Source of the DNA: a virus
Length of the DNA stretch: 25,698 nucleotides
Strand: one strand, 5' to 3'
Virus record (IMG/VR): IMGVR_UViG_3300006735_000214
Coordinates: 1 to 25,698 of that record
A program made the translations under genes and the position numbers. Of this stretch, positions 4,951 to 24,697 are shown piece by piece (the first letter of the stretch is position 1; each line of letters opens with the position of its first letter). The notes below the pieces were generated by a model. The model saw nothing but the letters and a program-made list of their open reading frames with translations, was not told where the DNA came from and did no database searches.

Positions 4951-6111
4951 ATGGAAATACCAAGAGAAGCAATTGAATTAACTTACGAAAGAGAAGGATA
5001 CACCACAATACAAGCAAAGCGAGAATTGGGTAATGGTCGTTGGGATAAAGCCCTCAAGAGGCACCTAACCCTACTCTCCGAAGCAGACAATTATGACGAG
5101 GCTAAAATGGAATGGTTGGCGACAGGTAATGTTTGGTGGAAGCCTTACAATGAATCTGTAACGTCTGCACCCGATTGGGTGCATGAATCTCATCAAGGAT
5201 ATGGAAAATGTCTTTGTGGACATCCTGTCAAATATCACTTTGAAATTAAAAACACAGTGAATGGGACGATTGAATGTGTCGGAAGCGACCACATCAATAC
5301 CTACTTGATTATCCGAGCCATTAGAGAATCTACAGGACTCGCTGATGAATTTATTACTGATGAAATGATTGCAGAATGGATTGATGTTCGGGTTGAAGGA
5401 ATGAAAAAAGAGTCTTGGTGGGAACAGCACGGGACACTATTTACTTACAAATTTGATAGAATCAAAGATTTAGATTTGCGTATGAATGTTAGGGTCAAAG
5501 GAACCTATTACGATTCTTCTCTAGGAATGTGGCGTGATAAAACCTTCATTCGCAAGAGGGCTATGAACGGACAAATGGCTTCCCTTGTTTGGAGATGGAA
5601 CCATCCGGATAACCCTAAGCGTCAAATTGAAACCCGTGGATATCCTAACCGCCAACTACTAGCAGATTTGGATGATTTTTACTATGAATCTAAAAAATAT
5701 CAAGCGGTTGCTGATGCGGAGGATGAAATGCTAACGGATAGAATCAAACAATCTAAAGAGACCCGAATAGAAAAGCAGCAAGGTTTCGTGGATGCTAAAA
5801 TGTCCTTTTATGGTATTCCAACATACCGTTCTTTGAAAAATAATTCTTCCCTCCCCAAGTGGGAGACTAGATTTGTGGAAGATATTGAAAACAGGATTAT
5901 TCGTCATCCGAATAAATCGCTTTCTATCAACCAACTCAATAAGTTGTGGGATATTTTCACCCCCGCTACGGACAAGCAGAAAAACCACATGATGAAACTA
6001 GGTTTCACCGAGGAAGAGACAGAAGTGACAAAACGGCAAGCCTCTTCCTTGATACAGGCTAAACAGGATGGCTTAAATAGTGAATACGAGGTAGATGAAA
6101 CAGGAAGGTGA
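4951..6111 (+). CDS. Conserved hypothetical protein with CxCGH-type zinc site, 386 aa
   Basis: ATG 4951 starts two bases after the previous stop. Near residues 80-115 is a CLCGH element (C87, C89, H91) followed by Lys-Tyr-His-Phe and, about 18 residues on, Glu-Cys-Val-Gly-Ser (C109). I recall this knuckle (cysteines plus a VGSxH-like turn) from phage proteins of unknown function. The C-terminal ~50 residues (ATDKQKNHMMKLGFTEEE, then helix) resemble a small helical module often found at the ends of phage single-strand-binding or recombination-related proteins. The middle is rich in Trp and Arg. It precedes the ubiquitin-like gene, whose ribosome-binding site overlaps this stop codon. No enzymatic motif is visible. 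Confidence 0.55.
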   Translation: MEIPREAIELTYEREGYTTIQAKRELGNGRWDKALKRHLTLLSEADNYDEAKMEWLATGNVWWKPYNESVTSAPDWVHESHQGYGKCLCGHPVKYHFEIKNTVNGTIECVGSDHINTYLIIRAIRESTGLADEFITDEMIAEWIDVRVEGMKKESWWEQHGTLFTYKFDRIKDLDLRMNVRVKGTYYDSSLGMWRDKTFIRKRAMNGQMASLVWRWNHPDNPKRQIETRGYPNRQLLADLDDFYYESKKYQAVADAEDEMLTDRIKQSKETRIEKQQGFVDAKMSFYGIPTYRSLKNNSSLPKWETRFVEDIENRIIRHPNKSLSINQLNKLWDIFTPATDKQKNHMMKLGFTEEETEVTKRQASSLIQAKQDGLNSEYEVDETGR

Positions 6112-6116
6112 TTATT

Positions 6117-6323
6117 ATGATTACATTGACAATTATGAATGAAACAGGACACACAGAATTAGCGCTTGAGGCTTCTCAGATTATTGAACAGATTGGAAGT
6201 CATCCAACCCATTGGATTTTTATTGATGGGGAATTGGTGACACGAGCCGATATCGCAGAAGTCAATTGGGATGAGGTAGATTCAGTTCAACTCAGCCCTG
6301 CTATCGTTGGAGGCTGCTACTGA
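6117..6323 (+). CDS. Ubiquitin-like (ThiS/MoaD-type beta-grasp) modifier, 68 aa
   Basis: I choose ATG 6117, six bases after a GGAAGGTGA ribosome-binding site; an in-frame GTG at 6108 is less likely. The protein has the size and strand-helix-strand pattern of MoaD/ThiS: an ITLTIM strand, a helix LEASQIIEQI, then WIFIDGELV, the usual conserved NGE/DGE turn. WDEVDSVQLSPAIVGG is very like the GDxVxLxPAVAGG end of ThiS/MoaD. The diglycine is G65-G66 and is followed by Cys-Tyr, so maturation would need removal of two residues. The JAMM protein at 9885 is a candidate protease, and the E1-like protein at 9318 would adenylate the exposed Gly-Gly. The job could be protein conjugation or sulfur transfer; the sequence does not decide. 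Confidence 0.72.
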   Translation: MITLTIMNETGHTELALEASQIIEQIGSHPTHWIFIDGELVTRADIAEVNWDEVDSVQLSPAIVGGCY

Positions 6324-6367
6324 GTTAGCATCCCTCAATCGCTATATCCTCTTAGCCGAATCGCTAT

Positions 6368-6441
6368 GCCCCTCTATAGAAACTACACTCATTGTAGGGA
6401 GGTAGTCCAGTCACTACTACCTCTGCTCTCTGTAGAGGGGC
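6368..6441 (+). ncRNA. Putative structured RNA, three-way junction
   Basis: A 12-bp outer stem with one G-U wobble joins 6368-6379 to 6430-6441. Inside it lie two perfect hairpins: 6383-6387/6393-6397 (5 bp, 5-base loop) and 6399-6406/6416-6423 (8 bp, 9-base loop). Together they make a compact three-way junction of 74 bases. It is placed directly upstream of a good ribosome-binding site and ATG at 6450. It lacks the conserved core of a tRNA or hammerhead ribozyme. An ORF starting at ATG 6366 runs through it, so a coding reading cannot be excluded. A translational control element or a stable small RNA is my preferred reading. Confidence 0.5.
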
Positions 6442-6449
6442 GAAAAAAA

Positions 6450-6680
6450 ATGGAAGGTGCTTTGCGTGCTTCACGCATCTTCCTTGAAACTAAAGAAGCC
6501 ACTAAATTCTTAAACGATAAATTGTATCGTGAATTATTTGATATTGAAGATGCTGTAAAAGAAGGTTTCTCTCAATATATCAAAAAACACATAAAAGAGT
6601 TGGATAGATTCAATGCTTACCACAAAAAAAACTGTAAAGGAACGGTGTGTGAATTATGTCTAAAGACCCAAACTATGTGA
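6450..6680 (+). CDS. Small helical protein with C-terminal Cys/His cluster, 76 aa
   Basis: ATG 6450 has GAGGGGCG upstream and lies just after the structured element. An alternative in-frame ATG at 6366 would add 28 residues (104 aa) but has no ribosome-binding site and falls in the stem. The body is a charged helix pair. The C-terminus has a His-x3-Cys-x4-Cys-x2-Cys cluster, a likely zinc site. The 3' end overlaps the next gene by 25 bases in another frame. It follows the ubiquitin-like gene, so it could be an accessory factor or target, but that is guesswork. No family is recognised. Confidence 0.5.
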   Translation: MEGALRASRIFLETKEATKFLNDKLYRELFDIEDAVKEGFSQYIKKHIKELDRFNAYHKKNCKGTVCELCLKTQTM

Positions 6681-6814
6681 ATTATTCACGAGGCGGTAAA
6701 ATCGCTACAAAATGTAGAGTGTGCGGAGGCAACCTCTACACGGCTCAAGATATTAAACTAGAAGCCCACGAAAATTGTCTCCAAAAATATACATCAAAAT
6801 TTAGAATGTTGTGA
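6656..6814 (+). CDS. Mini zinc-finger protein (C2HC), 52 aa
   Basis: ATG 6656 lies inside the 3' end of the upstream gene, and the stop TGA at 6812-6814 sits just before the next start. The peptide has C20-x2-C23 followed by H38-x2-C41, with the usual Gly-Gly after the first knuckle. This is a compact C2HC zinc finger. The N-terminus is polar and the C-terminus basic. The position, filling exactly the gap between two genes, and the intact zinc ligands support it as real. The function is unknown; a nucleic-acid- or protein-binding adaptor is likely. Confidence 0.55.
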   Translation: MSKDPNYVNYSRGGKIATKCRVCGGNLYTAQDIKLEAHENCLQKYTSKFRML

Positions 6815-6819
6815 TTAAA

Positions 6820-8193
6820 ATGAATGAAAATAAAAAGCAAATAATTTACAGACCCCCATATCAAAGAAGAAATAACCCTGCCCTTTTGGATAGGTTGATA
6901 GAAGGAAATCTTTGGATGTACCATCAAGACTTGGACTCTTACCGTAAAACTAACATATGGGATTATTGGCACACTGATTATTCATCAGTAAAAACCTCCT
7001 TCAAGATGGACTACGCTACCGAAGCGGTAGCCCTAAGTTTTAGAAACAGTATTTTCAAGGCAGCCCTTTCTAGTGCTAGTCATACCAGCAAAAAAAATAT
7101 AGCGGAATTCGTACTTAATGGGTTCTCAGTTATTATTGAAAACCTAGGAGGCAGCCTACGGATGAACGGTCAAACTATGACTAGGACTACTGCTTCTAGA
7201 CATCTAGCAAGTCTTTGTTTTCAAACAAACAATTCCGATACTAGGGAACAGGTCAGAGATGCATTTTTCAAAATTGTCTCTCTGCCACCCGATATCAACT
7301 ATGTGATTCTAAACCGGACTCCTTACTCATTCTACGATAATAGAACTTTTATCAAGTGCCGCTTAAACACTCAGCAAATATCTTCTAAAGAAATAGCGTT
7401 GGAAATAAGTGAGGGTATTTGGGGAAAAATACCAATTACGGAATTCATGGGTTATCTATCTCATTATCTTCATGGGACTCAGAGAGGAAGTTGGGTACAC
7501 ACTTCTCCGGAAAACCTCTACCGTCGTTTGATGGGCAAAGAAGGGAGAGAGTCCGATATCAAAGTTATGAAAAACTTCCTTATGCAGAATAGGACGAGTG
7601 ATTTAATCGCTAAAAGAGCCAATGTTCTACTACAGGATACTCTTGAAAAATATCCTCTAAGAATGAGATTCTTTCAAACTAATGGGAACCAAGCACTATT
7701 CGTCAAGGGTGTAGAGAACGATTGGATTATCTTTTGGAGGTCTCATACTAAGGATGGTAGGCAGTTGGTGTCTACTAAACATATTGGTTCTCTAACAGAA
7801 GAAGGATGGACTGAAATTAGAAGGATTGAAAAAAACTTTGGCAAGGATATTTCCGATTTCACTTGGAGAATCACTATTTCCGATTTAGATGAAGGTGTTC
7901 AATTAGGATTCCCCAAAGAAGGAGAGACCGACAACGGGTTTGATTGGCAACAAAAGTATCAAATTATGGGAGTATGTGTAGATAATCTACAGCGTAATTC
8001 TCCCCAAGTGGACCAAGCCATTTCTAGGGCTCTAGTTGTTTTGAACGATAAAGTCACTAAACCTATGGTAAGCACTATGCATAGCATCTATGAGGCCCCT
8101 AATAGAATAGATTTCTCATCCCTTACCCTACTTAATGGCTCAGTATATTTTTCTATGAGCCATTCTCAACAACAAAACGAGGAGGAGGAATAG
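6820..8193 (+). CDS. Large hypothetical protein, 457 aa
   Basis: I choose ATG 6820, just after a GTGAT ribosome-binding sequence that overlaps the previous stop. GTG 6811 would add three residues. I do not recognise the family. The N-terminal ~60 residues are rich in Arg, Tyr, Trp and Asn. The central part is helical with basic patches (TRTTASRHLASL). The C-terminal third alternates Trp/Phe-rich strands, and the tail is a Gln/Glu run. No Walker, HNH, RVT or zinc motif is visible. Its stop TAG shares a base with the GTG of TFB, so the two are translationally coupled; a role linked to transcription or genome handling is possible. This is the largest unassigned gene in the window. Confidence 0.6.
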   Translation: MNENKKQIIYRPPYQRRNNPALLDRLIEGNLWMYHQDLDSYRKTNIWDYWHTDYSSVKTSFKMDYATEAVALSFRNSIFKAALSSASHTSKKNIAEFVLNGFSVIIENLGGSLRMNGQTMTRTTASRHLASLCFQTNNSDTREQVRDAFFKIVSLPPDINYVILNRTPYSFYDNRTFIKCRLNTQQISSKEIALEISEGIWGKIPITEFMGYLSHYLHGTQRGSWVHTSPENLYRRLMGKEGRESDIKVMKNFLMQNRTSDLIAKRANVLLQDTLEKYPLRMRFFQTNGNQALFVKGVENDWIIFWRSHTKDGRQLVSTKHIGSLTEEGWTEIRRIEKNFGKDISDFTWRITISDLDEGVQLGFPKEGETDNGFDWQQKYQIMGVCVDNLQRNSPQVDQAISRALVVLNDKVTKPMVSTMHSIYEAPNRIDFSSLTLLNGSVYFSMSHSQQQNEEEE

Positions 8194-9014
8194 TGGTTCC
8201 TTGTTCCGAATGTGGAGAAAATGAATTCACCTTTAACGAGTTTTTAGGTGAAAGTGTTTGTGATTATTGCGGTCTTGTTGTCGTTACCCAACCCTTTGAG
8301 CAAGAGATTAGACTCTACGACGAGCAGGGTAATCCTATACGCTCTGTTGATAAATCAGTAGGTTCCAAGGCTGTCAATAAATACGATAGAGTCATGGCAA
8401 GCCATATTCTTAGAGGCCTAACTCTTAGTAAAATGTGTATGGCATCTATTACTCAATCCCGTTCCCTCATAGATAGGTTAGAGAATGCTTACCTTTCTTG
8501 TTTCCGAGGAGGTGTTTTCGGTGTATCTTCTTATGAGGCTAGAGCCACTGCTATTACCTATTATCTTCTTAGAGAAAGAAATCTGCCTTACACACTCAAG
8601 CAAGTATGTGCAGAGTTTGGTTCTAGTACGAAAGAAGTTTCTAAAATAGCAAAGAGAATAGCAAAGCATTTCGGGAATGCAGGAACAAACCCAATGAATT
8701 ATCTAGGTCTTGTTGAAAAATTTTCAACTAACTTAGGCGACCTAGACTTTTCTAGATGCTCCGGAATAGTATTTTCATTTTTTGAGAAAACTCTACAGAG
8801 TAGACAGGAGACAATTAAACCCAACTATGTAGCAGCCGTAATTTACATTACGAATCTTCTTGAATACAAAAGACTGACTCAATCAGCAGTTGGGGAAGAA
8901 TGTGGTTGTTCATCAAGAACGGTTAGAATGATGACCAAAGAATTGCTTACCATGGTTGGTAAAACAGAAAAAGAAATTAAAGGCAAGGGAATACAATGGC
9001 TGGCTTCGGTGTAA
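8193..9014 (+). CDS. tfb: Transcription initiation factor B (TFB/TFIIB-like)
   Basis: This 273-residue protein is an archaeal-type TFIIB. It bridges TBP at the TATA/BRE promoter and RNA polymerase. The N-terminal zinc ribbon is C4-x2-C7 ... C23-x2-C26 followed by GLVV, the standard TFB ending. A linker with DKSVGSKAVNKYDR stands where the B-reader/linker lies. Two helical repeats follow, each typical of cyclin folds (YEARATAITYYLLRE and KPNYVAAVIYITNLLEY). The second repeat ends in a helix-turn-helix-like segment (LTQSAVGEECGCSSRTVR) that in TFB contacts the BRE. The protein is somewhat shorter than the usual ~300 residues. GTG start overlaps the upstream stop. Carrying its own TFB would let the virus direct host RNA polymerase to viral promoters. 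The inference of an archaeal host rests strongly on this gene. Confidence 0.9.
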   Translation: MVPCSECGENEFTFNEFLGESVCDYCGLVVVTQPFEQEIRLYDEQGNPIRSVDKSVGSKAVNKYDRVMASHILRGLTLSKMCMASITQSRSLIDRLENAYLSCFRGGVFGVSSYEARATAITYYLLRERNLPYTLKQVCAEFGSSTKEVSKIAKRIAKHFGNAGTNPMNYLGLVEKFSTNLGDLDFSRCSGIVFSFFEKTLQSRQETIKPNYVAAVIYITNLLEYKRLTQSAVGEECGCSSRTVRMMTKELLTMVGKTEKEIKGKGIQWLASV

Positions 9015-9042
9015 AATTAGAAAAAATAAAGGAGGAATAAAT

Positions 9043-9315
9043 ATGAAAAAAGAATTAAAAAATTATTGTGCGTTTTGTGATGAGGCGATGCAAGACTATG
9101 AATCAAACAACCCTGCCCCTTTCATTTTCAAGAGCGTCTATGATAGGGTCTGTAGGGATTGTGATAATTTTGTTTCTGCTACAAGGATGCTATGCACGAC
9201 AGAGGAACAAGTTAGTTTTATTCAAAACTTATTGATGATGAGTTTTAGCCTCAAAAAGGCTAGAAAGAAATCAATGGAGATATTTGAAAAAATGAATGAA
9301 CAAAAGGAGGAATAA
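9043..9315 (+). CDS. Small four-Cys zinc-finger protein upstream of E1, 90 aa
   Basis: ATG 9043 has a strong AAAGGAGG ribosome-binding site. An open frame from 8956 overlaps TFB and is not needed. C9-x2-C12 and C37-x2-C40 form a zinc site. The remainder is a Lys/Met-rich helix that is probably amphipathic. The stop is two bases before the E1-like gene, which has an identical ribosome-binding site, so the two are almost certainly co-transcribed. Position suggests an adaptor or substrate-selection role for the ubiquitin-like pathway, but the protein has too few ligands for a RING finger. That link is inference. Confidence 0.6.
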   Translation: MKKELKNYCAFCDEAMQDYESNNPAPFIFKSVYDRVCRDCDNFVSATRMLCTTEEQVSFIQNLLMMSFSLKKARKKSMEIFEKMNEQKEE

Positions 9316-9317
9316 AA

Positions 9318-9875
9318 ATGAAAAGAAAAATATTGATAATTGGAGCAGGTGGTATTGGGAGTTTCCTTGTGCCGCTTCTAGATAAGACGGGTCTTTACAC
9401 CATTTCGGTTAGCGACCCCGACACCGTAGAAACGAAGAATTTGACTTACCAAAACTTCAATGAGGAGGATGTAGGTTCTCTCAAGGTCATGGCCTTGCAG
9501 AATAGACACTTGATTAGCCCGAACAAGTTTCCTATCTTGACAGAGCAACAACTTGCTGGCTACGACCTCGTAGTTTGTTGTGTAGATAATTTGACCGCAC
9601 GACGGCTTCTTTATCGCTCACAGGGCTTCCCTTGGCTTGACCTAAGAGCGCAGGGTAGGAACTGCGCCTACATCACTTACAAAGCCGACCCTACCACCTA
9701 CGATACTTTACTGGCAGGTCCGGATGGTAGTTTCTCTTGTCAAGGAGATGCGTGGGATGGCTCTAACGAGTCAGTCCACTTCATGCAGGTGGCCGTTGCA
9801 GGTATCGGTGCTGAATGGATTCAGCGTTGGTTTAACGATGAAGAAGTGAATGGGTTTGGAACCCTTTTTGTTTGA
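9318..9875 (+). CDS. E1-like (ThiF/MoeB/HesA family) adenylating enzyme
   Basis: The 185-residue protein is a minimal E1-type enzyme, expected to adenylate the C-terminal glycine of a ubiquitin-like protein using ATP. The Rossmann motif is GAGGIGS (residues 9-15). The ribose-binding D33 sits in SDPDTVETKNL, with N41 and Q45 of the NLxxQ motif, K56 in GSLK, and the Mg-binding D90 in VDN. The Arg usual in NLxRQ is Tyr44 here. C141 (in FSCQGD) or C116 could be the thioester cysteine. It is shorter than ThiF/MoeB (about 245 residues), close to the bare adenylation domain, without the usual CxxC zinc pairs at the C-terminus. ATG follows GGAGG. The JAMM gene is nine bases downstream. Confidence 0.88.
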   Translation: MKRKILIIGAGGIGSFLVPLLDKTGLYTISVSDPDTVETKNLTYQNFNEEDVGSLKVMALQNRHLISPNKFPILTEQQLAGYDLVVCCVDNLTARRLLYRSQGFPWLDLRAQGRNCAYITYKADPTTYDTLLAGPDGSFSCQGDAWDGSNESVHFMQVAVAGIGAEWIQRWFNDEEVNGFGTLFV

Positions 9876-9884
9876 GGTGAAAAC

Positions 9885-10487
9885 ATGGAAAATTTAACAG
9901 CAAAAGAAATATCGTTGGTGATTGAAAATACGAAGAAAGAACACTTGCTTCTTCTTAGAAAGTACGCAAAGGACTACATACAAATGGTATGGAAGGAATT
10001 GTGCGAGAAGCAATTATCTTCTTGTACGAGCCTAAACGATATGGAACATCACTTGTATTTCCATTCTGCTATATGGGAAGCCTCTACCGTTATACTTCCG
10101 AATCTTGAAGTGCAAGTAGTCATTGATGATAACTGGAAACTTCACATTTCTTCGGGGACTGCTGGTTTCGTAGGTTTCCCTAGCGAACCTAAGGGACTCA
10201 AACTTCCTATTCGTTGCTGGATTCATACACATCCCTTTGGTCGTGCATATTTTTCGGGTATTGATTGGAAAACAGTTTCAGTTTGGGGCAGTCAAATGAA
10301 GTGTGCTTATGTGTTAGGAGGAGGGCAGCACTATGGTTTTTGGGACCAAAGCGCTCCTCAAGAGTTATCCATTTACCACAATGACTTTTTTGACCACACT
10401 TCTAATCAATTTTTAGAACGCCCTGTTGAGATACAACAAAAGAGTATGTCTCTAGGGCTGAAAGAGAATCTAAAGGAGGGAGAATGA
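9885..10487 (+). CDS. JAB/MPN (JAMM) metallopeptidase
   Basis: This 200-residue protein is a probable zinc-dependent isopeptidase or modifier-processing protease. The JAMM signature is complete: H114-x-H116-x7-S124-x2-D127, in the context IHTHPFGRAYFSGID. E65 about 49 residues upstream is the likely catalytic acid. A Gly-rich loop (LGGGQHYGFW) follows, as in the MPN fold. The first 45 residues form a charged helix not needed for the fold. Relatives process ubiquitin-like precursors or cleave conjugates. Here the obvious substrate is the 68-aa modifier at 6117, with two residues after Gly-Gly. ATG is preceded by GAGGTGA. The stop is immediately followed by the next ATG. Confidence 0.85.
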   Translation: MENLTAKEISLVIENTKKEHLLLLRKYAKDYIQMVWKELCEKQLSSCTSLNDMEHHLYFHSAIWEASTVILPNLEVQVVIDDNWKLHISSGTAGFVGFPSEPKGLKLPIRCWIHTHPFGRAYFSGIDWKTVSVWGSQMKCAYVLGGGQHYGFWDQSAPQELSIYHNDFFDHTSNQFLERPVEIQQKSMSLGLKENLKEGE

Positions 10488-10709
10488 ATGACGCATACAG
10501 AAGAAGATATCGGTAAAATTGTAGATTATGAGACCTCTAACGGCATGCTAAAACATGAGCGAATTGTCCTTGTGTATTGTCAAATTTGTTCTGCTCAGTT
10601 CATTGGTCCGATTAGAGAGGCCGGTGGATTTCTAGGAGCCCATGAATTATTCCACAACTGGGAGTTTTCCGCAATGATTCAAAGTGAAAAAGGAGGATTG
10701 ATTCCTTGA
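10488..10709 (+). CDS. Small C2H2-type zinc-finger protein downstream of JAMM, 73 aa
   Basis: ATG 10488 directly abuts the JAMM stop with a GGAGGGAGA ribosome-binding site. The ligands are C31-x2-C34-x17-H52-x3-H56, with the inter-ligand loop Gly-rich. The N-terminal 25 residues are acidic. The fold would be a C2H2 finger of unusual spacing. Its zero-gap placement after the JAMM gene suggests a shared role, perhaps substrate recognition. No known family is recognised. Confidence 0.6.
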   Translation: MTHTEEDIGKIVDYETSNGMLKHERIVLVYCQICSAQFIGPIREAGGFLGAHELFHNWEFSAMIQSEKGGLIP

Positions 10710-10810
10710 GTGAACGCAGAAAAACTGTTTTATTCTTCACTAGAGTGTGTTTCTACTGCACTGGTAGTCTAGCATTCCTTGTGAATATAGGCGTGGAGGT
10801 GACGGCGTGA
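10706..10810 (+). CDS. Putative single-span membrane mini-protein, 34 aa
   Basis: A TTG at 10706 overlaps the previous TGA (TTGA) and lies nine bases after GGAGG. The peptide begins polar/basic (Ser-Glu-Arg-Arg-Lys) and continues as a hydrophobic segment of about 20 residues with two Cys, consistent with one membrane span. The stop overlaps the next GTG (GTGA). Evidence is limited to packing, ribosome-binding site and composition, so this may be a spacer. It has the look of a small holin-like or regulatory peptide, but nothing shows that. Confidence 0.35.
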   Translation: MSERRKTVLFFTRVCFYCTGSLAFLVNIGVEVTA

Positions 10811-10947
10811 GATTGAATAGTGAAGTATTATACAACAAGGAAATTAGCAGTGTGGTATGCTCAAAGTGTGGTAAGTATGTAGATGCTGACTACTTTGGTG
10901 GTATGATTAAAGTAGCACCATGTAAGTGCGTGGAGGTGAAAGAATGA
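10807..10947 (+). CDS. Mini zinc-ribbon protein, 46 aa
   Basis: The GTG at 10807 overlaps the previous stop (GTGA), with GGAGGTGA about eight bases upstream. C18-x2-C21 and C39-x-C41 make a plausible zinc knuckle pair. The stop overlaps the ATG of the methyltransferase (ATGA), so translation is probably coupled. The function is unknown. Confidence 0.5.
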   Translation: MRLNSEVLYNKEISSVVCSKCGKYVDADYFGGMIKVAPCKCVEVKE

Positions 10948-11555
10948 GCCTACACGAGAACTTTGGTAAAGGCAATACAGATGCTAACGCAAACCTTACG
11001 GCTAATGATGTAGTCTACACTCCTAGAAATATTGCTAGGCAAATGATTGCATTTTACGACCTCAAAGAAGATGATAGAGTCCTTGACCCATGCGCTGGAG
11101 ATGGTGCATTCTTTGACCAATATCCCTCACATATCCTTGGGAAGTGGCGCATGGAGATTACAGAAGGTTTGGATTTTTTTGATTGGGATGTTTCTTCAAG
11201 TCCTAAGATTGATTGGATTATTACCAACCCCCCTTACAGCATATACGAGCAGTTTGCCGAAAAAGCGTTTGAGGTTGCTGATAATGTTTGCTTTCTTATC
11301 CCTCTATCCAAAGTGGTATCAAGCCTAGGCCGAATCAATTCGGTCTTGGAATACGGAGGTTTTGTTTCTATCCATATCATTGGTGCTAGTAAGTGCGGAT
11401 TTCCTTTTGGTTTCCCTGCCGCCGCCGTTCATATGAAGCGTGGTTATGAAGGGGAAACAATAATCAAGATGTGGGAGGACCCCACACAAAAAAGCCTTCT
11501 AGAATATGTCTCATTAGCACATGAGGACGAGGAAGCCTACAGATATTCCGTGTGA
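10944..11555 (+). CDS. DNA adenine-N6-type methyltransferase
   Basis: I choose ATG 10944, with GGAGGTGAA upstream and an ATGA overlap with the previous gene; an in-frame GTG at 10926 is not needed. The 203-residue protein has the SAM-binding motif I as VLDPCAGDGAFF and the catalytic motif IV as NPPY, in the motif I-before-IV order. It starts with a VYTPRNIARQMI element typical of N6-adenine enzymes, which sits just before motif I. It has no clear target-recognition domain, so specificity may be low or set by a partner. It likely modifies viral DNA, protecting it from host restriction or marking it. No cognate restriction enzyme is visible, which fits an orphan phage enzyme. Confidence 0.87.
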   Translation: MSLHENFGKGNTDANANLTANDVVYTPRNIARQMIAFYDLKEDDRVLDPCAGDGAFFDQYPSHILGKWRMEITEGLDFFDWDVSSSPKIDWIITNPPYSIYEQFAEKAFEVADNVCFLIPLSKVVSSLGRINSVLEYGGFVSIHIIGASKCGFPFGFPAAAVHMKRGYEGETIIKMWEDPTQKSLLEYVSLAHEDEEAYRYSV

Positions 11556-11776: not shown

Positions 11777-11794
11777 TAACTAATTGAGTTGGGT

Positions 11795-12010
11795 ATGAAA
11801 TCAGTCGGTGATTGGGTAGCAGTTAAGGTTGAAGAAGGTCAGCATGCGTATGGCATTATTGCCACAAATGAAAACAGTGGTAAGGTCGTATCATGCGGAA
11901 AGGATAACTCCTTAATCGGTAAGAAAGTTTACTTCTCCGTTGATAATGCAAAGAAAGCCGAAGGCTATGCGTTTATCCCTTACGATGATATTTATGGGGT
12001 GGAAGAATGA
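11795..12010 (+). CDS. groES: GroES-like co-chaperonin (Cpn10)
   Basis: The 71-residue protein lies directly upstream of GroEL, with an ATGA stop/start overlap at 12007. It has the Cpn10 pattern: an N-terminal DWVAVKV strand (as in DRVIVK), a short mobile-loop region GQHAYGIIAT, NSGKVVSCG (as in RGEVLAVG), GKKVYFS, and the C-terminal IPYDDIYGVEE (as in xxxDILAxxE). It is shorter than bacterial GroES (about 97 residues), mainly through loss of roof-loop segments, similar to phage co-chaperonins. It would cap the GroEL ring and define the folding chamber. I choose ATG 11795; a TTG at 11789 is in frame. The identity rests as much on gene position as on sequence. Confidence 0.75.
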   Translation: MKSVGDWVAVKVEEGQHAYGIIATNENSGKVVSCGKDNSLIGKKVYFSVDNAKKAEGYAFIPYDDIYGVEE

Positions 12011-20910: not shown

Positions 20911-21705
20911 ATGATAACAAAAAAGAAAGAAGAAACAGAAATTAAGTTAGATGGCTTTGATGCCATCCTACTACAACAACAAAAAGAGTTTATTGCACAG
21001 AAGAATTATCTTCTTGCAGGAATTGAAGGTGAGGCTAAGACGGGTAAATCCGGACTTTCCATGGATACAGAATTCAAAACCTTCTACTTAGATTGTGATG
21101 TAGGAGCAGTCCCCACTTGGAAAACAAATCACAACTCTACAAACCGGATTGTGATTTACAACCCCAACGCTAAGGATGAGAATGGTGATTCCGACCCTTA
21201 CAAAACTCAAGGTAACATTAGAACATTCATTGCTCATGTCGCTCTTGAAATTAAGAAGAGTCAAGAGCCTATTCTTTTCGTTTGGGACGGTGTGGATTCA
21301 TGGCTTGATGATTGTACCACTTACATGACAGGTATGGAAAACTCTAGGATGAGGCCCTTTAAACCTCAAAAACAACAAGAATGGCATCAAAGAAATAACC
21401 CATTCAAGACTGTTATTGGCGAGGCCATTGACCTTCAATGCCATAGGCTTTTCATTACTCATACGAAAGAACCGTTTAGAGATGAACCCGCAAAAGCCAT
21501 TTGGAACAGAGTTGATTCCAAACTACACACAGTTATTCGGACGAACCAAAGAATGACCATTAAGGGAATGCAATACATTGCCACAATTAAAAGTAGCAAG
21601 TATCATCCTAAAATGGTCGGAAAGAAAATTCCTTTCTGCACCTTTGAAGAGGATGGGGTAGTTAAGTGGGAAGGTATTTCGGTACTAAAGGAGATGGAAA
21701 TTTGA
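20911..21705 (+). CDS. RecA-like recombinase ATPase (Sak4/RadA-like)
   Basis: I choose ATG 20911 with AAGGTGA upstream; GTG 20902 would add three residues. The 264-residue protein has Walker A GEAKTGKS (residues 40-47) and a Walker B-like strand ILFVWDGVDSW with D126. A sensor-like HTKEPF segment (LFITHTKEPF) corresponds to the RecA core. No N-terminal zinc or Lon-like domains are present. This is the plan of phage Sak4-type single-strand annealing/recombination ATPases, which are short RadA relatives. It would work with the single-strand-binding candidate at 19124. The stop overlaps the next gene start (TTGA). Confidence 0.75.
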   Translation: MITKKKEETEIKLDGFDAILLQQQKEFIAQKNYLLAGIEGEAKTGKSGLSMDTEFKTFYLDCDVGAVPTWKTNHNSTNRIVIYNPNAKDENGDSDPYKTQGNIRTFIAHVALEIKKSQEPILFVWDGVDSWLDDCTTYMTGMENSRMRPFKPQKQQEWHQRNNPFKTVIGEAIDLQCHRLFITHTKEPFRDEPAKAIWNRVDSKLHTVIRTNQRMTIKGMQYIATIKSSKYHPKMVGKKIPFCTFEEDGVVKWEGISVLKEMEI

Positions 21706-22499
21706 ATTTTAGAGTAGATGCTAAAGAGTTTAGAGAGGCATTGGAAGATTGTATGTTGAAGGGTAAGTATTATGACAAGAGTTCTAATCTTGGACAATAC
21801 ATTTACCTTGAAGCATCAAAAAGAAAAGACGACCTCCGATTCTTTGAGTTGAGAATTTGGAACGCCGATATGTCCACAATTGTTATGTGTGCTATCCCAG
21901 CAACTCCTCTTTCCCCTACAGATGGATTGTTATTGGATTCAAAAATCGTTTTTGATACTGCGAATACAAATGGCTTTTTGAAAGGTTTTGGAGACACCAT
22001 ATCCTTTCGTATAGAAAGGGGTAGACTTTGTATCTTCTCGGAAGATACAGACCTGTCAATTTCGCTTGTGAACGAACACCCATACGAGTCTTCTATTGAC
22101 ATGGTGAAGAATAATTCTATGCCTTTGTCAAGCGAACTTCAAGTTTATTTTGATAAGGATATTCTTCCCTCTTTTGGTAAAACTTACTTTGAAACAGCCC
22201 TAGAAGTAGACAACAAAGAATTCTCAAGCACCGTTCAAATGGCTGAAAGGATTGGTACGGGATTCAAACTAAGTTATTACGAAGATATGGGATTAGCGAT
22301 TAGCGCAGATTCAAATTCTCAAAATTTTAAAAAAACTATCACACCCTTGGTTAATCTAGGTGATGACAGCATTGTTGAAATCTCCGCACCAATTTACAAA
22401 TTCTTTAATGAATCTTTTTGGCTATTCTTAAAGGATGAATCTCCCGTCTTTGCTTGTTCAAGCAACCGGATTCTTATTCGTGCGCCTAGAATTAATTGA
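21702..22499 (+). CDS. Putative sliding clamp (PCNA-like)
   Basis: A TTG start at 21702 overlaps the upstream stop and lies eight bases after AAGGAG. The 265-residue length matches PCNA (about 245-260). Strands such as LRFFELRIWNAD resemble an early clamp beta-alpha-beta unit. FGDTISFRIERGRLCIFSEDTD looks like the clamp domain-1 repeat pattern, and a second such repeat follows in KLSYYEDMGLAISADS. There is no catalytic motif. Position immediately before the B-family polymerase and after clamp-loader genes is the main reason for the call. An unrelated accessory protein is possible; sequence identity to PCNA appears low. Confidence 0.6.
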   Translation: MNFRVDAKEFREALEDCMLKGKYYDKSSNLGQYIYLEASKRKDDLRFFELRIWNADMSTIVMCAIPATPLSPTDGLLLDSKIVFDTANTNGFLKGFGDTISFRIERGRLCIFSEDTDLSISLVNEHPYESSIDMVKNNSMPLSSELQVYFDKDILPSFGKTYFETALEVDNKEFSSTVQMAERIGTGFKLSYYEDMGLAISADSNSQNFKKTITPLVNLGDDSIVEISAPIYKFFNESFWLFLKDESPVFACSSNRILIRAPRIN

Positions 22500-22508
22500 G
22501 GGTAAACC

Positions 22509-24281
22509 ATGATTATTGCTAATAATGAAAATCAAATATACAAATCTTGGAGAAACGAAAACGGTGAGTTGGTCATTCAAGACGATGAACACCGCCCATA
22601 TTTCTTCGTTCCCGATTCGTACAGAGAGGCTAAATCCTACAGAGTAGGTAAGTTTCTCAAGCGACCACTCACCTATGAAAAGGGAGAATGGTATAACATT
22701 GATGGAAAGAAGTTGAAGAAAGTTTACTACGAATTACCTCGCCATGTTGAGGATGCGAAGAAGCCGTTCATACATCCAACCAATGGAGACATGACCTACG
22801 AAGCCGATGTATCGGTTGTTAATCGCTATGCCGTGGACAACATCAACGAGATACCAAACTACAAACTTAAGAAATTTTATTGGGATATGGAATGGCAACA
22901 AGGTGGAGAGCATGATGGCAAGATTACATCCATCGGCCTTTACAACAATGAAGAGAAGGAGTTTCATACATGGGTTTGGTATCCCGAAGAATCCTTTGAA
23001 CCAATTGACACTCCTAATGTAGATGGTTATTCCTGTTCTTTACAATCCTTTAGAAGCGAAGAAACAATGCTACGAAACTTTGTAGTGTATTTGTCTATTG
23101 AAAGACCCGACATGATGATTGCTTGGTTCGGGCTTAAGTTTGATTTACCTAAGTTATTGAGCCGTTGTATTTCTAACGACATTGACCCAAGATGTATTTC
23201 CCCGATTGGAGTTATTGATGGCATCAAAGAATACATGGAAGAGAATCTATCCTTTTCCAAACCGAATGGATATTCTTCAATCGCTCAACCCGTCAAGGGT
23301 ATGCTCATGCTCAACCTTGATGTTGCTTTTGAACGACAATGGAATGATGCACAACGAGGAACCCTACCAAGTCTAGCCTTAGACTTTGTTTCAAAGACTC
23401 TTTTCGGAGAAGGTAAGCACATTGAAACGAAGTTTACAGACCCCAATGAATTCTATTCTAGGGCTTGGCTTGAGGACAAAGAATCGTATCTACAGTATAC
23501 CATTACTGATGTAGAATTGCTCCGTAGAATTGATGAAGAGAATCATTGTAGTGAGGCTATTATTGCACTACAAAGATTGCTAAAGGCTCCCTTTGAGTCT
23601 TGTTTTTTTGCTTCACACATGGGTTCTATTTACTTCATGCGTAATGCTTCTTGGAAATGTAAAACAGGAAAGAAGTTAAAAACAAAGAAATGTGAAGCGT
23701 GTGGATTTGAGAATCCCAAAGACAAGCAACTTAAGACCTGTAAGCAGTGTGGAGAATCTTTGTCGTATTCCGGAGCCATGATTTATCATCCTCTCAATGA
23801 AGGAGGAACCAACGGGTTGCATCTAAATGTAGCGGCGTTTGACTTTGCTGGCCTCTATCCTTCAATGATAGTGGCTCGCAACATCAGTTTTGAAACCATC
23901 AGCGAAACACCCACCTTGTTTGGAGCAGATTTGAACACACCTCAAAATCTCCAACCCTTTCCGGAGGGCTACGAGGAGGATATGGTTTACTTCAAGACCG
24001 ACGAGTTGGGACTGCTCCCCCGCTCCATTCTTGAGTTGAAAGCATTGAGAAATGCCTACAAGAAGGAGATGAAGGAAGCACGAGAGAACGGCTTGAAAGA
24101 TGATGTCGTGAAGTGGAATAACAACCAAATGGCTGTTAAAAGACTCATGGCTTCTTTCTACGGAATCCTTGCCTTCAAGGGATTCGGATGGGCAGATTCA
24201 AAACTAGCGGCTAGCATTACAGCAAGCGCTAGGGAGGCCATTCGTGAAGCGGCTACAGTTGCTAAGGAGATGAAAGTATGA
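22509..24281 (+). CDS. polB: DNA polymerase B, N-terminal part (exonuclease, palm motif A, motif B)
   Basis: The 590-residue fragment carries most of a family B replicative polymerase. The 3'-5' exonuclease motifs are Exo I WDMEW (D126, E128), Exo II GLKFD (D212) and Exo III YTITD (Y330-D334). Palm motif A is FDFAGLYPSMI with D445. Motif B/fingers is KRLMASFYG (544-552), with Ala where Asn is usual in KxxxNSxYG. A four-Cys zinc ribbon (C395, C398, C411, C414) is inserted between Exo III and motif A, where most relatives have none. The gene stops two residues before the catalytic YGxTDS motif, which is in the separate downstream ORF at 24914. The stop overlaps the HNH start (ATGA). Full activity presumably needs both parts to assemble. 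Confidence 0.93.
   Translation: MIIANNENQIYKSWRNENGELVIQDDEHRPYFFVPDSYREAKSYRVGKFLKRPLTYEKGEWYNIDGKKLKKVYYELPRHVEDAKKPFIHPTNGDMTYEADVSVVNRYAVDNINEIPNYKLKKFYWDMEWQQGGEHDGKITSIGLYNNEEKEFHTWVWYPEESFEPIDTPNVDGYSCSLQSFRSEETMLRNFVVYLSIERPDMMIAWFGLKFDLPKLLSRCISNDIDPRCISPIGVIDGIKEYMEENLSFSKPNGYSSIAQPVKGMLMLNLDVAFERQWNDAQRGTLPSLALDFVSKTLFGEGKHIETKFTDPNEFYSRAWLEDKESYLQYTITDVELLRRIDEENHCSEAIIALQRLLKAPFESCFFASHMGSIYFMRNASWKCKTGKKLKTKKCEACGFENPKDKQLKTCKQCGESLSYSGAMIYHPLNEGGTNGLHLNVAAFDFAGLYPSMIVARNISFETISETPTLFGADLNTPQNLQPFPEGYEEDMVYFKTDELGLLPRSILELKALRNAYKKEMKEARENGLKDDVVKWNNNQMAVKRLMASFYGILAFKGFGWADSKLAASITASAREAIREAATVAKEMKV
24270..24278 (+). repeat. Left 9-bp direct repeat flanking the polB insertion
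   Basis: ATGAAAGTA here encodes the last Met-Lys-Val of the N-terminal polymerase fragment. The same nine bases are repeated at 24914-24922, where they provide the start of the C-terminal fragment. Removing one copy plus the intervening sequence (644 bases) restores one continuous polymerase frame. Confidence 0.85.
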
Positions 24282-24697
24282 GCATGTGGAAATTAGAAAA
24301 GAAAAGATTTCAAATGTTATTAGAGTCCGATTTTGATGGTGACGAAGAAGCGTTGGTTTCATATTTTCCCGAATTGTATAGACATACTACTAAAGCCCGA
24401 CTTAAAGCAAGTCTTAGGTCAAGACTCTATGCCTTTCTTAAAGGTAAGAACAAAAACTCTTCCTTTGAATTTGTAGGTTGTTCTGTTGATGAGTTGAAAG
24501 AACACTTGTCTTCTCAATTTACAGAAGGAATGTCGTGGGAAAATTATGGTGAATGGCATATAGACCACATTAAACCATGTGCTTCATTTAATTTAAATAT
24601 CTTAGAAGAACAAAATAAGTGCTTTCATTATTCTAATCTGCAACCTCTATGGGCTAAAGACAATTTAAAGAAAGGCGCAAAGGAGACGGAAGTATGA
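24278..24697 (+). CDS. HNH homing endonuclease
   Basis: The 139-residue protein starts at ATG 24278, overlapping the polymerase stop. The HNH nuclease core is clear: EWHIDHIKPC (general base and metal-binding His/Asp) and, after a spacer, HYSNLQPLWAKDNLKKG (the Asn/His-bearing helix of the motif). Such DH...NLQPLW...DN patterns are typical of mobile phage HNH enzymes. The N-terminal ~70 residues are basic and helical and may bind DNA. It likely promoted its own spread into the polymerase gene of related viruses. The ATGA overlap with the next small gene places it in the coupled chain. Confidence 0.88.
   Translation: MSMWKLEKKRFQMLLESDFDGDEEALVSYFPELYRHTTKARLKASLRSRLYAFLKGKNKNSSFEFVGCSVDELKEHLSSQFTEGMSWENYGEWHIDHIKPCASFNLNILEEQNKCFHYSNLQPLWAKDNLKKGAKETEV

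Follow-up and report, generated by a model that had tools for sequence, protein, structure and literature searches.

Does a virus of marine archaea carry its own machinery for tagging proteins with a ubiquitin-like modifier? The question arises from a cluster of genes in IMG/VR record IMGVR_UViG_3300006735_000214, which we analyzed over all of its 25,698 nucleotides (here called the window). The cluster encodes a small ubiquitin-like modifier (Ubl), a minimal ubiquitin-activating-type enzyme (E1) and a JAMM metalloprotease (JAMM). A fourth conserved protein, which we call X, is encoded between Ubl and E1 (Table 1). An original prediction from the letters of this DNA held that the virus carries a modifier, an E1 and a JAMM that belong together, and their fixed order and co-occurrence bear this out. 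On the sequence evidence, this cassette is probably a virus-encoded, reversible ubiquitin-like protein-modification system.

The first of these genes had been read as a 68-amino-acid beta-grasp protein ending Gly-Gly-Cys-Tyr. The open reading frame (ORF 6117-6323) encodes 68 amino acids from its ATG, or 71 from a GTG at 6108, and ends ...SPAIVGGCY. The protein gave no match to Pfam (0 families, the ThiS, Urm1 and ubiquitin models included), PHROG or PADLOC, and its sequence profile found only chance matches in the PDB. The predicted fold is borne out by an AlphaFold model (predicted local distance difference test, pLDDT, 79.7) with the strand and helix order b-b-a-b-b-a-b of a beta-grasp. Foldseek matched the model mainly to ubiquitin-family chains with modest E-values. 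In VIA-align, residues 1-66 matched MoaD (3rpf_C, Z 6.0), SAMP2 (5lda_B, Z 5.1), TtuB (5gha_H, Z 5.1) and ubiquitin (1ubq, Z 4.8), and Gly66, the last residue aligned, paired with residue 76 of ubiquitin. Although the Z scores are not high, most of the listed matches have the ubiquitin fold, and they extend over the entire chain.

We collected 52 distinct viral relatives of Ubl. The Gly-Gly was expected to be conserved and is kept in all 52, at the end of ...AIVGG; the invariant residues are N8, G11, H12, T13, W33 and A62-I63-V64-G65-G66. Lysine makes up 0.85% of the viral Ubl compared with 5.6-7.6% in neighboring proteins, with no lysine in 22 of the 52 sequences and one lysine after residue 4 in 5 of them. 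This depletion fits a modifier that avoids tagging itself and builds no lysine-linked chains. With so few lysines of its own, the viral Ubl is probably attached to its targets singly and not in chains.

The E1 passed the Pfam ThiF model (PF00899) with 63.3 bits against a cut-off of 28.1. Its AlphaFold model (pLDDT 93.5; predicted template modeling score 0.91) has the adenylation-domain fold, with Z scores of 20.6 to UBA3, 19.7 to MoeB, 19.6 to ThiF and 18.1-18.6 to BubCD. We collected 73 distinct viral E1 sequences and counted motifs in 45 virus and 33 cellular rows. The ATP-site residues (GxGGxGS, D33, N41, K56 and D90) are invariant in the 45 virus rows. At 185 amino acids the chain is too short for a catalytic-cysteine insertion domain, and Cys141, present in 45 of 45 virus rows and 28 of 33 cellular rows, is a candidate catalytic cysteine. 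Between near relatives the ratio of nonsynonymous to synonymous changes (dN/dS) is 0.055-0.058 for E1 and 0.13-0.17 for Ubl, and these values together with the conservation exclude a chance origin of the ORFs.

The third protein was predicted to have the exact HxHx7Sx2D signature. It does (HTHPFGRAYFSGID), and none of the 77 distinct viral relatives departs from the signature; an upstream Glu75 is also invariant among them. The best PDB match of its profile was an AMSH-like protease, which is a deubiquitinase (E 4.7e-4). The motif, Glu75 and this match mark the protein as a predicted JAMM/MPN+ protease. Family models recognized only the E1 of the three; JAMM scored 17.2 bits on Prok-JAB, under the cut-off of 25, and Ubl matched none. 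A search of phage records with JAMM gave no match.

The presence of this protease had been explained by a need of Ubl to lose Cys-Tyr. That explanation was not supported, as the tails vary freely while the JAMM motifs stay intact. Among the 52 viral Ubls, 9 end at Gly-Gly, 4 have one further residue and 39 have two, the last being Tyr, Leu, Cys or Val in 36 of these 39. The full motif occurs in all 15 virus loci where the neighboring Ubl ends exactly at Gly-Gly. Because these JAMMs keep the motif, trimming cannot be the only job of the protease, and it likely has a role beyond the tail.

Viral contigs of sufficient length keep Ubl, X, E1 and JAMM in this order on one strand. Where present, Ubl lies ~2.5-7 kb upstream of E1, and loci without Ubl have no more than 4.5 kb of upstream sequence. 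These loci were found using the trio genes themselves, and we repeated the comparison with 25 contigs found independently through the family B DNA polymerase (PolB). E1 occurred in 17 of the 25 and Ubl in 15, in line with the expectation that the trio co-occurs in related genomes. The 8 contigs lacking E1 extend 0 to ~11 kb upstream of PolB, whereas in the window 13.2 kb separate E1 and PolB. Because they are too short on that side, no contig contradicts the co-occurrence. Each of 16 large virus records, taken from the trio searches, has one Ubl and no tandem repeats.

Table 1. Positions of the cassette genes, their key codons and neighboring genes in the window.
Feature	Position	Strand	Remark
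Ubl, 68-aa beta-grasp modifier	6117..6323	+	C-terminus ...AIVGG-CY
Gly65-Gly66 codons of Ubl	6309..6314	+	predicted activated C-terminus
2-residue Ubl tail codons	6315-6320	+	dispensable
X, conserved fourth component, 460 aa	6811..8193	+	homologues between Ubl and E1 across viral loci
Invariant Cys codon of X	7975..7977	+	GxCxDN...GDQ...ND motif
TFB (transcription factor B)	8193..9014	+	within cassette; archaeal-virus marker
E1, minimal adenylation-domain ThiF/E1, 185 aa	9318..9875	+	PF00899 63.3 bits
Cys141 codon of E1	9738..9740	+	candidate catalytic cysteine, loop 132-155
JAMM/MPN+ metalloprotease, 200 aa	9885..10487	+	starts 9 bases past E1 stop codon
JAMM zinc/catalytic motif	10224..10265	+	HTHPFGRAYFSGID = HxHx7Sx2D
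GroES	11789-12010		read by eye, without family match
PCNA	21666-22499		read by eye, without family match

Of the relatives of the cassette that we found, the closest lie on the chromosomes of the host archaea rather than in PRTRC or CBASS systems. By its genes the window virus is a magrovirus, one of a common virus group that is abundant in the ocean, infecting the Poseidoniales (Marine Group II archaea, which are marine and uncultured). In a genome scan with the E1 profile, Poseidoniales chromosomes matched at 27-36% identity, many near full length. JAMM genes or E1-JAMM fusions adjoin the host E1 genes, and many loci also have Ubl. Viral hidden Markov models found the host homologues with E-values of 5e-15 to 1e-8 for Ubl, to about 4e-27 for E1 and to 1e-20 for JAMM, and virus-to-host profile alignment (hhalign) gave E 4e-17 for Ubl over 66 columns from GG to GG and E 9.6e-24 for JAMM. 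Among 194 Poseidoniales genomes, 90 had a strong E1 match, 87 had Ubl and 81 had both (Fisher p 2e-36, uncorrected for kinship). The neighbors at host loci encode 3-hydroxyacyl-CoA dehydrogenase, GDP-mannose dehydratase and methylmalonyl-CoA mutase, and because of these metabolic genes we regard the two host loci examined as chromosomal rather than proviral.

Several hosts have 2-4 Ubl repeats per ORF, joined after Gly-Gly (our loci L249, L267, L280 and L283-L289), with Ala-Gly in place of Gly-Gly at repeat ends in a few (L287, L288). Other host fusions are Ubl-Ubl-E1, E1-JAMM and Ubl joined to another domain. One host poly-Ubl scored 20.6 bits on Urm1 (cut-off 21.8). Such an arrangement would be expected of modifier precursors, and because the repeats are joined after Gly-Gly, a protease cutting at that place is needed. 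Virus and host therefore appear, from their genes, to share a ubiquitin-type tagging system. The homologous host set with polyubiquitin-like precursors seems to be new here; the literature searched, which covered the magrovirus papers in part, contained no earlier description of it.

From the fold and the conserved residues, E1 would bind ATP and adenylate the C-terminal Gly66 of Ubl. The activated Ubl would be passed on, perhaps, and this is speculative, by way of Cys141 in E1 or of the Cys that is invariant in X, and attached to lysines of host or viral proteins. JAMM would strip the tail of one or two residues where there is one and free Ubl from its targets. The cassette would be the viral version of the chromosomal host system, with its poly-Ubl precursors and fused E1-JAMM. 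During infection its likely purpose is to redirect or reverse the tagging carried out by the host, or to compete with it. We consider protein conjugation the probable function, and favor it over sulfur transfer, which is unlikely, and over pure counter-defense, which is less likely again, because the viral Ubl is depleted in lysine and no viral rhodanese was found.

If the trio were a sulfur-carrier module, E1 would adenylate Ubl, sulfurtransferases of the host would make a C-terminal thiocarboxylate for tRNA thiolation or for cysteine or cofactor synthesis, and JAMM would trim the tail. The QbsE/QbsD and CysO/Mec+ systems presumably provide parallels for such trimming, and the GGCY tail of Ubl recalls QbsE. 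MoaD is the best structural match of Ubl, TtuB is also listed, and E1 matches the structures of MoeB and ThiF. The virus has two tRNAs, and bacterial trios of a ThiS/MoaD-like protein, an E1-rhodanese and a JAB have been described (PMC1779556). Against this, a search for rhodanese domains found none in the 16 large virus records and none fused to E1, with a control that was detected in 13 of 14 cases. Rhodanese domains are the typical partners of sulfur-carrying E1s; they are present in the host. A sulfur carrier would also leave the lysine depletion unexplained, as well as the retention of JAMM where Ubl has no tail. The poly-Ubl precursors of the host argue against it too; sulfur carriers are not known to have them.

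A role confined to counter-defense would leave viral targets unmodified and disturb a host defense based on Ubl conjugation, with the lysine-free Ubl competing as a decoy or JAMM stripping host Ubl from viral proteins. The patchy distribution of the homologous system, with E1 and Ubl together in 81 of 194 host genomes, and the alignment of viral and host Ubl profiles over 66 columns to GG would both suit such a role, as would the fast divergence of JAMM and X between near relatives (60% identity in JAMM, 96% in E1). The Borg deSAMPylases have been proposed as a precedent (PMC12660748). However, a JAMM or a decoy alone would suffice for this, and E1 is strongly constrained (dN/dS ~0.06) with its ATP-site residues intact. 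Moreover, the set is kept throughout the virus group though the system is missing from half of the hosts sampled. It is very improbable that E1 acts like MccB or AclA on the C-terminus of a small peptide or protein with JAMM unrelated to it: AclA (9egc/9egb) and then MccB are the top PDB profile matches of E1, but the candidate substrate is a folded beta-grasp protein whose GG never varies, and hosts have fusions of Ubl with E1 and of E1 with JAMM.

Protein conjugation as the function of the cassette has several observations to answer. The nucleotide motifs of E1, predicted to be intact, are so at the ATP site but not at the Arg of NLxRQ, which is replaced by Tyr44 in 45 of 45 virus rows and by His in 22 of 33 cellular rows. 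Residue 1 of E1 aligns with residue 30 of MoeB, and the N-terminal helix of MoeB is missing. These two features could alter the activity of E1. The Ubl is short, with a model of moderate confidence (pLDDT 79.7) and Z scores of no more than 6, and host enzymes could provide the sulfur that a carrier role would require. No conjugating enzyme (E2) or ligase (E3) was recognized, and a search for PF00179 (UQ_con) in the 16 virus records and 4 hosts was empty, with the control silent too. The profile of X gave no significant match to PDB chains, and its hhalign probability against an E2 (UBE2D2) was 0.6-1.6%.

The statement in the original prediction that no E2 is visible thus holds by homology, but it overlooked X; both this 460-amino-acid ORF and the TFB gene between Ubl and E1 had been omitted. 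We found 87 ORFs homologous to X across viral loci. The C-terminal domain has the motif GxCxDN...GDQ...ND, and its Cys is kept in 66 of 66 viral rows. Iterated profiles found the X domain in proteins adjoining many host Ubl/E1/JAMM loci and, weakly (E 0.05), in a protein adjoining a related Methanoperedens E1. Only the Cys and two Asp residues are invariant over virus, Poseidoniales and Methanoperedens rows, and at several host E1 loci no X was detected within 6 kb of E1. By eye GxCxDN is similar to the active site of an E2, but none of the profile methods supports X as one, and Pfam and NCBIfam scans of its host homologues gave no E2 support. X may be a transfer enzyme, an adaptor or the main substrate.

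An X-related domain with an ICIG/ICLD motif occurs at host loci where Ubl is either fused to it or accompanied by a separate gene for it. These loci are L290:2262-3359 (minus strand) and L297:3327-4088. In the fused form the domain follows Gly-Gly, and the protein looks like a ubiquitin-fusion precursor. A stronger proposal, which we put forward tentatively and with considerable doubt, is that a complete Ubl conjugation cascade of a new type is common to this order of archaeal viruses and its hosts, with X as a Cys-dependent E2 analogue. If this is true, the virus would control host or virion proteins through a lysine-depleted modifier, a minimal E1, JAMM and X, a set whose counterpart on host chromosomes has polyubiquitin-like precursors.

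Among known systems, the bacterial poly-Ubl/JAB-E1 operons are closest in architecture and archaeal SAMPylation is closest in biology. The former (row 6e of Iyer, Burroughs and Aravind, 2006; PMC1779556) have tandem Ubl repeats of ~70-75 amino acids, like the host loci, and a JAB-E1 fusion with a metal-binding protein, where the host loci have an E1-JAMM fusion and an X with a zinc-ribbon-like start. They differ in being bacterial, in having JAB N-terminal to E1, whereas the Poseidoniales JAMM is C-terminal, and in having an inactive E2/RWD-like protein, whereas X has no detectable E2 similarity. The virus also differs from them in its single Ubl and separate genes. The haloarchaeal SAMP system (UbaA E1, SAMP1-3 and HvJAMM1; PMC4443979, PMC4895103) likewise combines an archaeal beta-grasp GG modifier, an E1 and a JAMM with no recognized E2. 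By contrast, the viral E1 scored 35.3 bits on the UbaA equivalog NF047750 (cut-off 450) and has neither the N-terminal part nor the Arg of NLxRQ, and the viral genes are clustered and virus-encoded. In Caldiarchaeum, the JAMM CsRpn11 was shown experimentally to cut the CsUb precursor exactly after Gly-Gly and to remove conjugates (PMC6043591). That operon has an E2 and a RING E3, and the CsUb precursor has 9 extra residues compared with 0-2 in the viral Ubl.

CBASS Cap2/Cap3, Bil and Bub share the logic of E1, JAMM and Ubl and the adenylation-domain fold with the cassette. PRTRC and CBASS had been named as relatives; the viral E1 scored 39.3 bits on the PRTRC model TIGR03736, far under the cut-off of 144.75. 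It is not fused to an E2, and PADLOC E1-E2 defense models match it only in the E1 part. Bil and Bub have a dedicated E2-like protein; X has an invariant Cys but no detectable E2 similarity. These systems are antiviral, whereas the cassette is carried by a virus. No CD-NTase was found by Pfam and NCBIfam among ORFs 4951-11552; the rest of the virus was not searched for it. The TAPI (Ubl) and TAPK (JAB) proteins of phages lambda and T1 are likewise virus-encoded, but they have no E1 and a tail-assembly context (PMC1779556), whereas the magrovirus genes are in the replication region.

The RaFAH study (PMC8276007) ranks a MoeB/ThiF-family gene with the auxiliary genes that occur most often in predicted archaeal viruses and suggests a link to ubiquitination; the relevant passage mentions no modifier, JAMM or host counterpart. 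A magrovirus study (PMC10160649) does not mention ubiquitin, ThiF or JAB, and other magrovirus literature could hold prior notice. An earlier survey reported a UCH-type deubiquitinase and RING proteins, which belong to different families, from one Marine Group II single-cell genome (PMC4327156).

A recent capture of the cassette from the host was not supported by the E1 tree, in which the Poseidoniales rows cluster together (99/97) apart from those of the viruses. The viral rows do not fall cleanly into a single group (2 changes), and under the midpoint rooting of this tree transfer could have gone in either direction. Between the window and a near relative (L103) identity is 96% in E1, 85% in Ubl and 60% in JAMM, and X is also strongly diverged, with saturated synonymous sites. 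Such divergence points to recombination, or else to fast change, inside the cassette. Three contigs from 'Maricaulis' and 'Altibacter' metagenome-assembled genomes (L105-L107) have a viral-type E1 (55-61% identity), JAMM and X; rather than as bacterial copies, we took them as misbinned magrovirus contigs.

Further relatives of E1 occur elsewhere. No Ubl or JAMM was detected beside the related Methanoperedens E1 genes. Downstream of the minimal E1 in this lineage is a protein of ~160-174 amino acids ending ...THKGKGG (L122:6577-7056, L124:6649-7170 and L135:6571-7068), which may be a modifier or substrate of another type. In a Paceibacterota locus (L133:5890-7039) a ThiF-like gene precedes one for a ThiS-family protein (PF02597, E 7e-7) that ends in GGGW, by these matches a further small E1/Ubl pair, in a bacterium of the candidate phyla radiation. 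Many crAss-like Bacteroides phages have a distant ThiF-family protein (27-36% identity) annotated as a thiamine biosynthesis protein.

The window is a 25.7-kb fragment of a magrovirus genome, and most relatives are on contigs of up to 97 kb. Compared with PMC10768690, it has the Magrovirales gene set (TFB, RFC-S, PCNA, split PolB, ligase and GroEL/GroES), with TFB recognized weakly. Family matches were obtained for a UvrD-type helicase, an ATP-dependent DNA ligase, the RFC small subunit, PolB and a GroEL-type chaperonin, and the tRNA genes are for tRNA-Arg and tRNA-Leu. PolB is split into separate N-terminal and C-terminal parts, and between them an Endonuclease VII-like ORF (PHROG 1035; 24278-24697) may be a homing endonuclease. 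The TFB gene matched NF001658 (TFIIB, E 1.4e-11) and the PF08271 zinc ribbon (E 1.9e-5), both below the model cut-offs; it is embedded in the cassette but need not belong to the pathway.

Ubiquitin-like conjugation in prokaryotes is known mainly as antiviral defense or sulfur chemistry. A modifier, E1 and JAMM conserved in viruses make it testable whether archaeal viruses use ubiquitin-type tagging in infection. They also offer a new archaeal branch on which to ask how sulfur carriers gave rise to polyubiquitin and conjugation.

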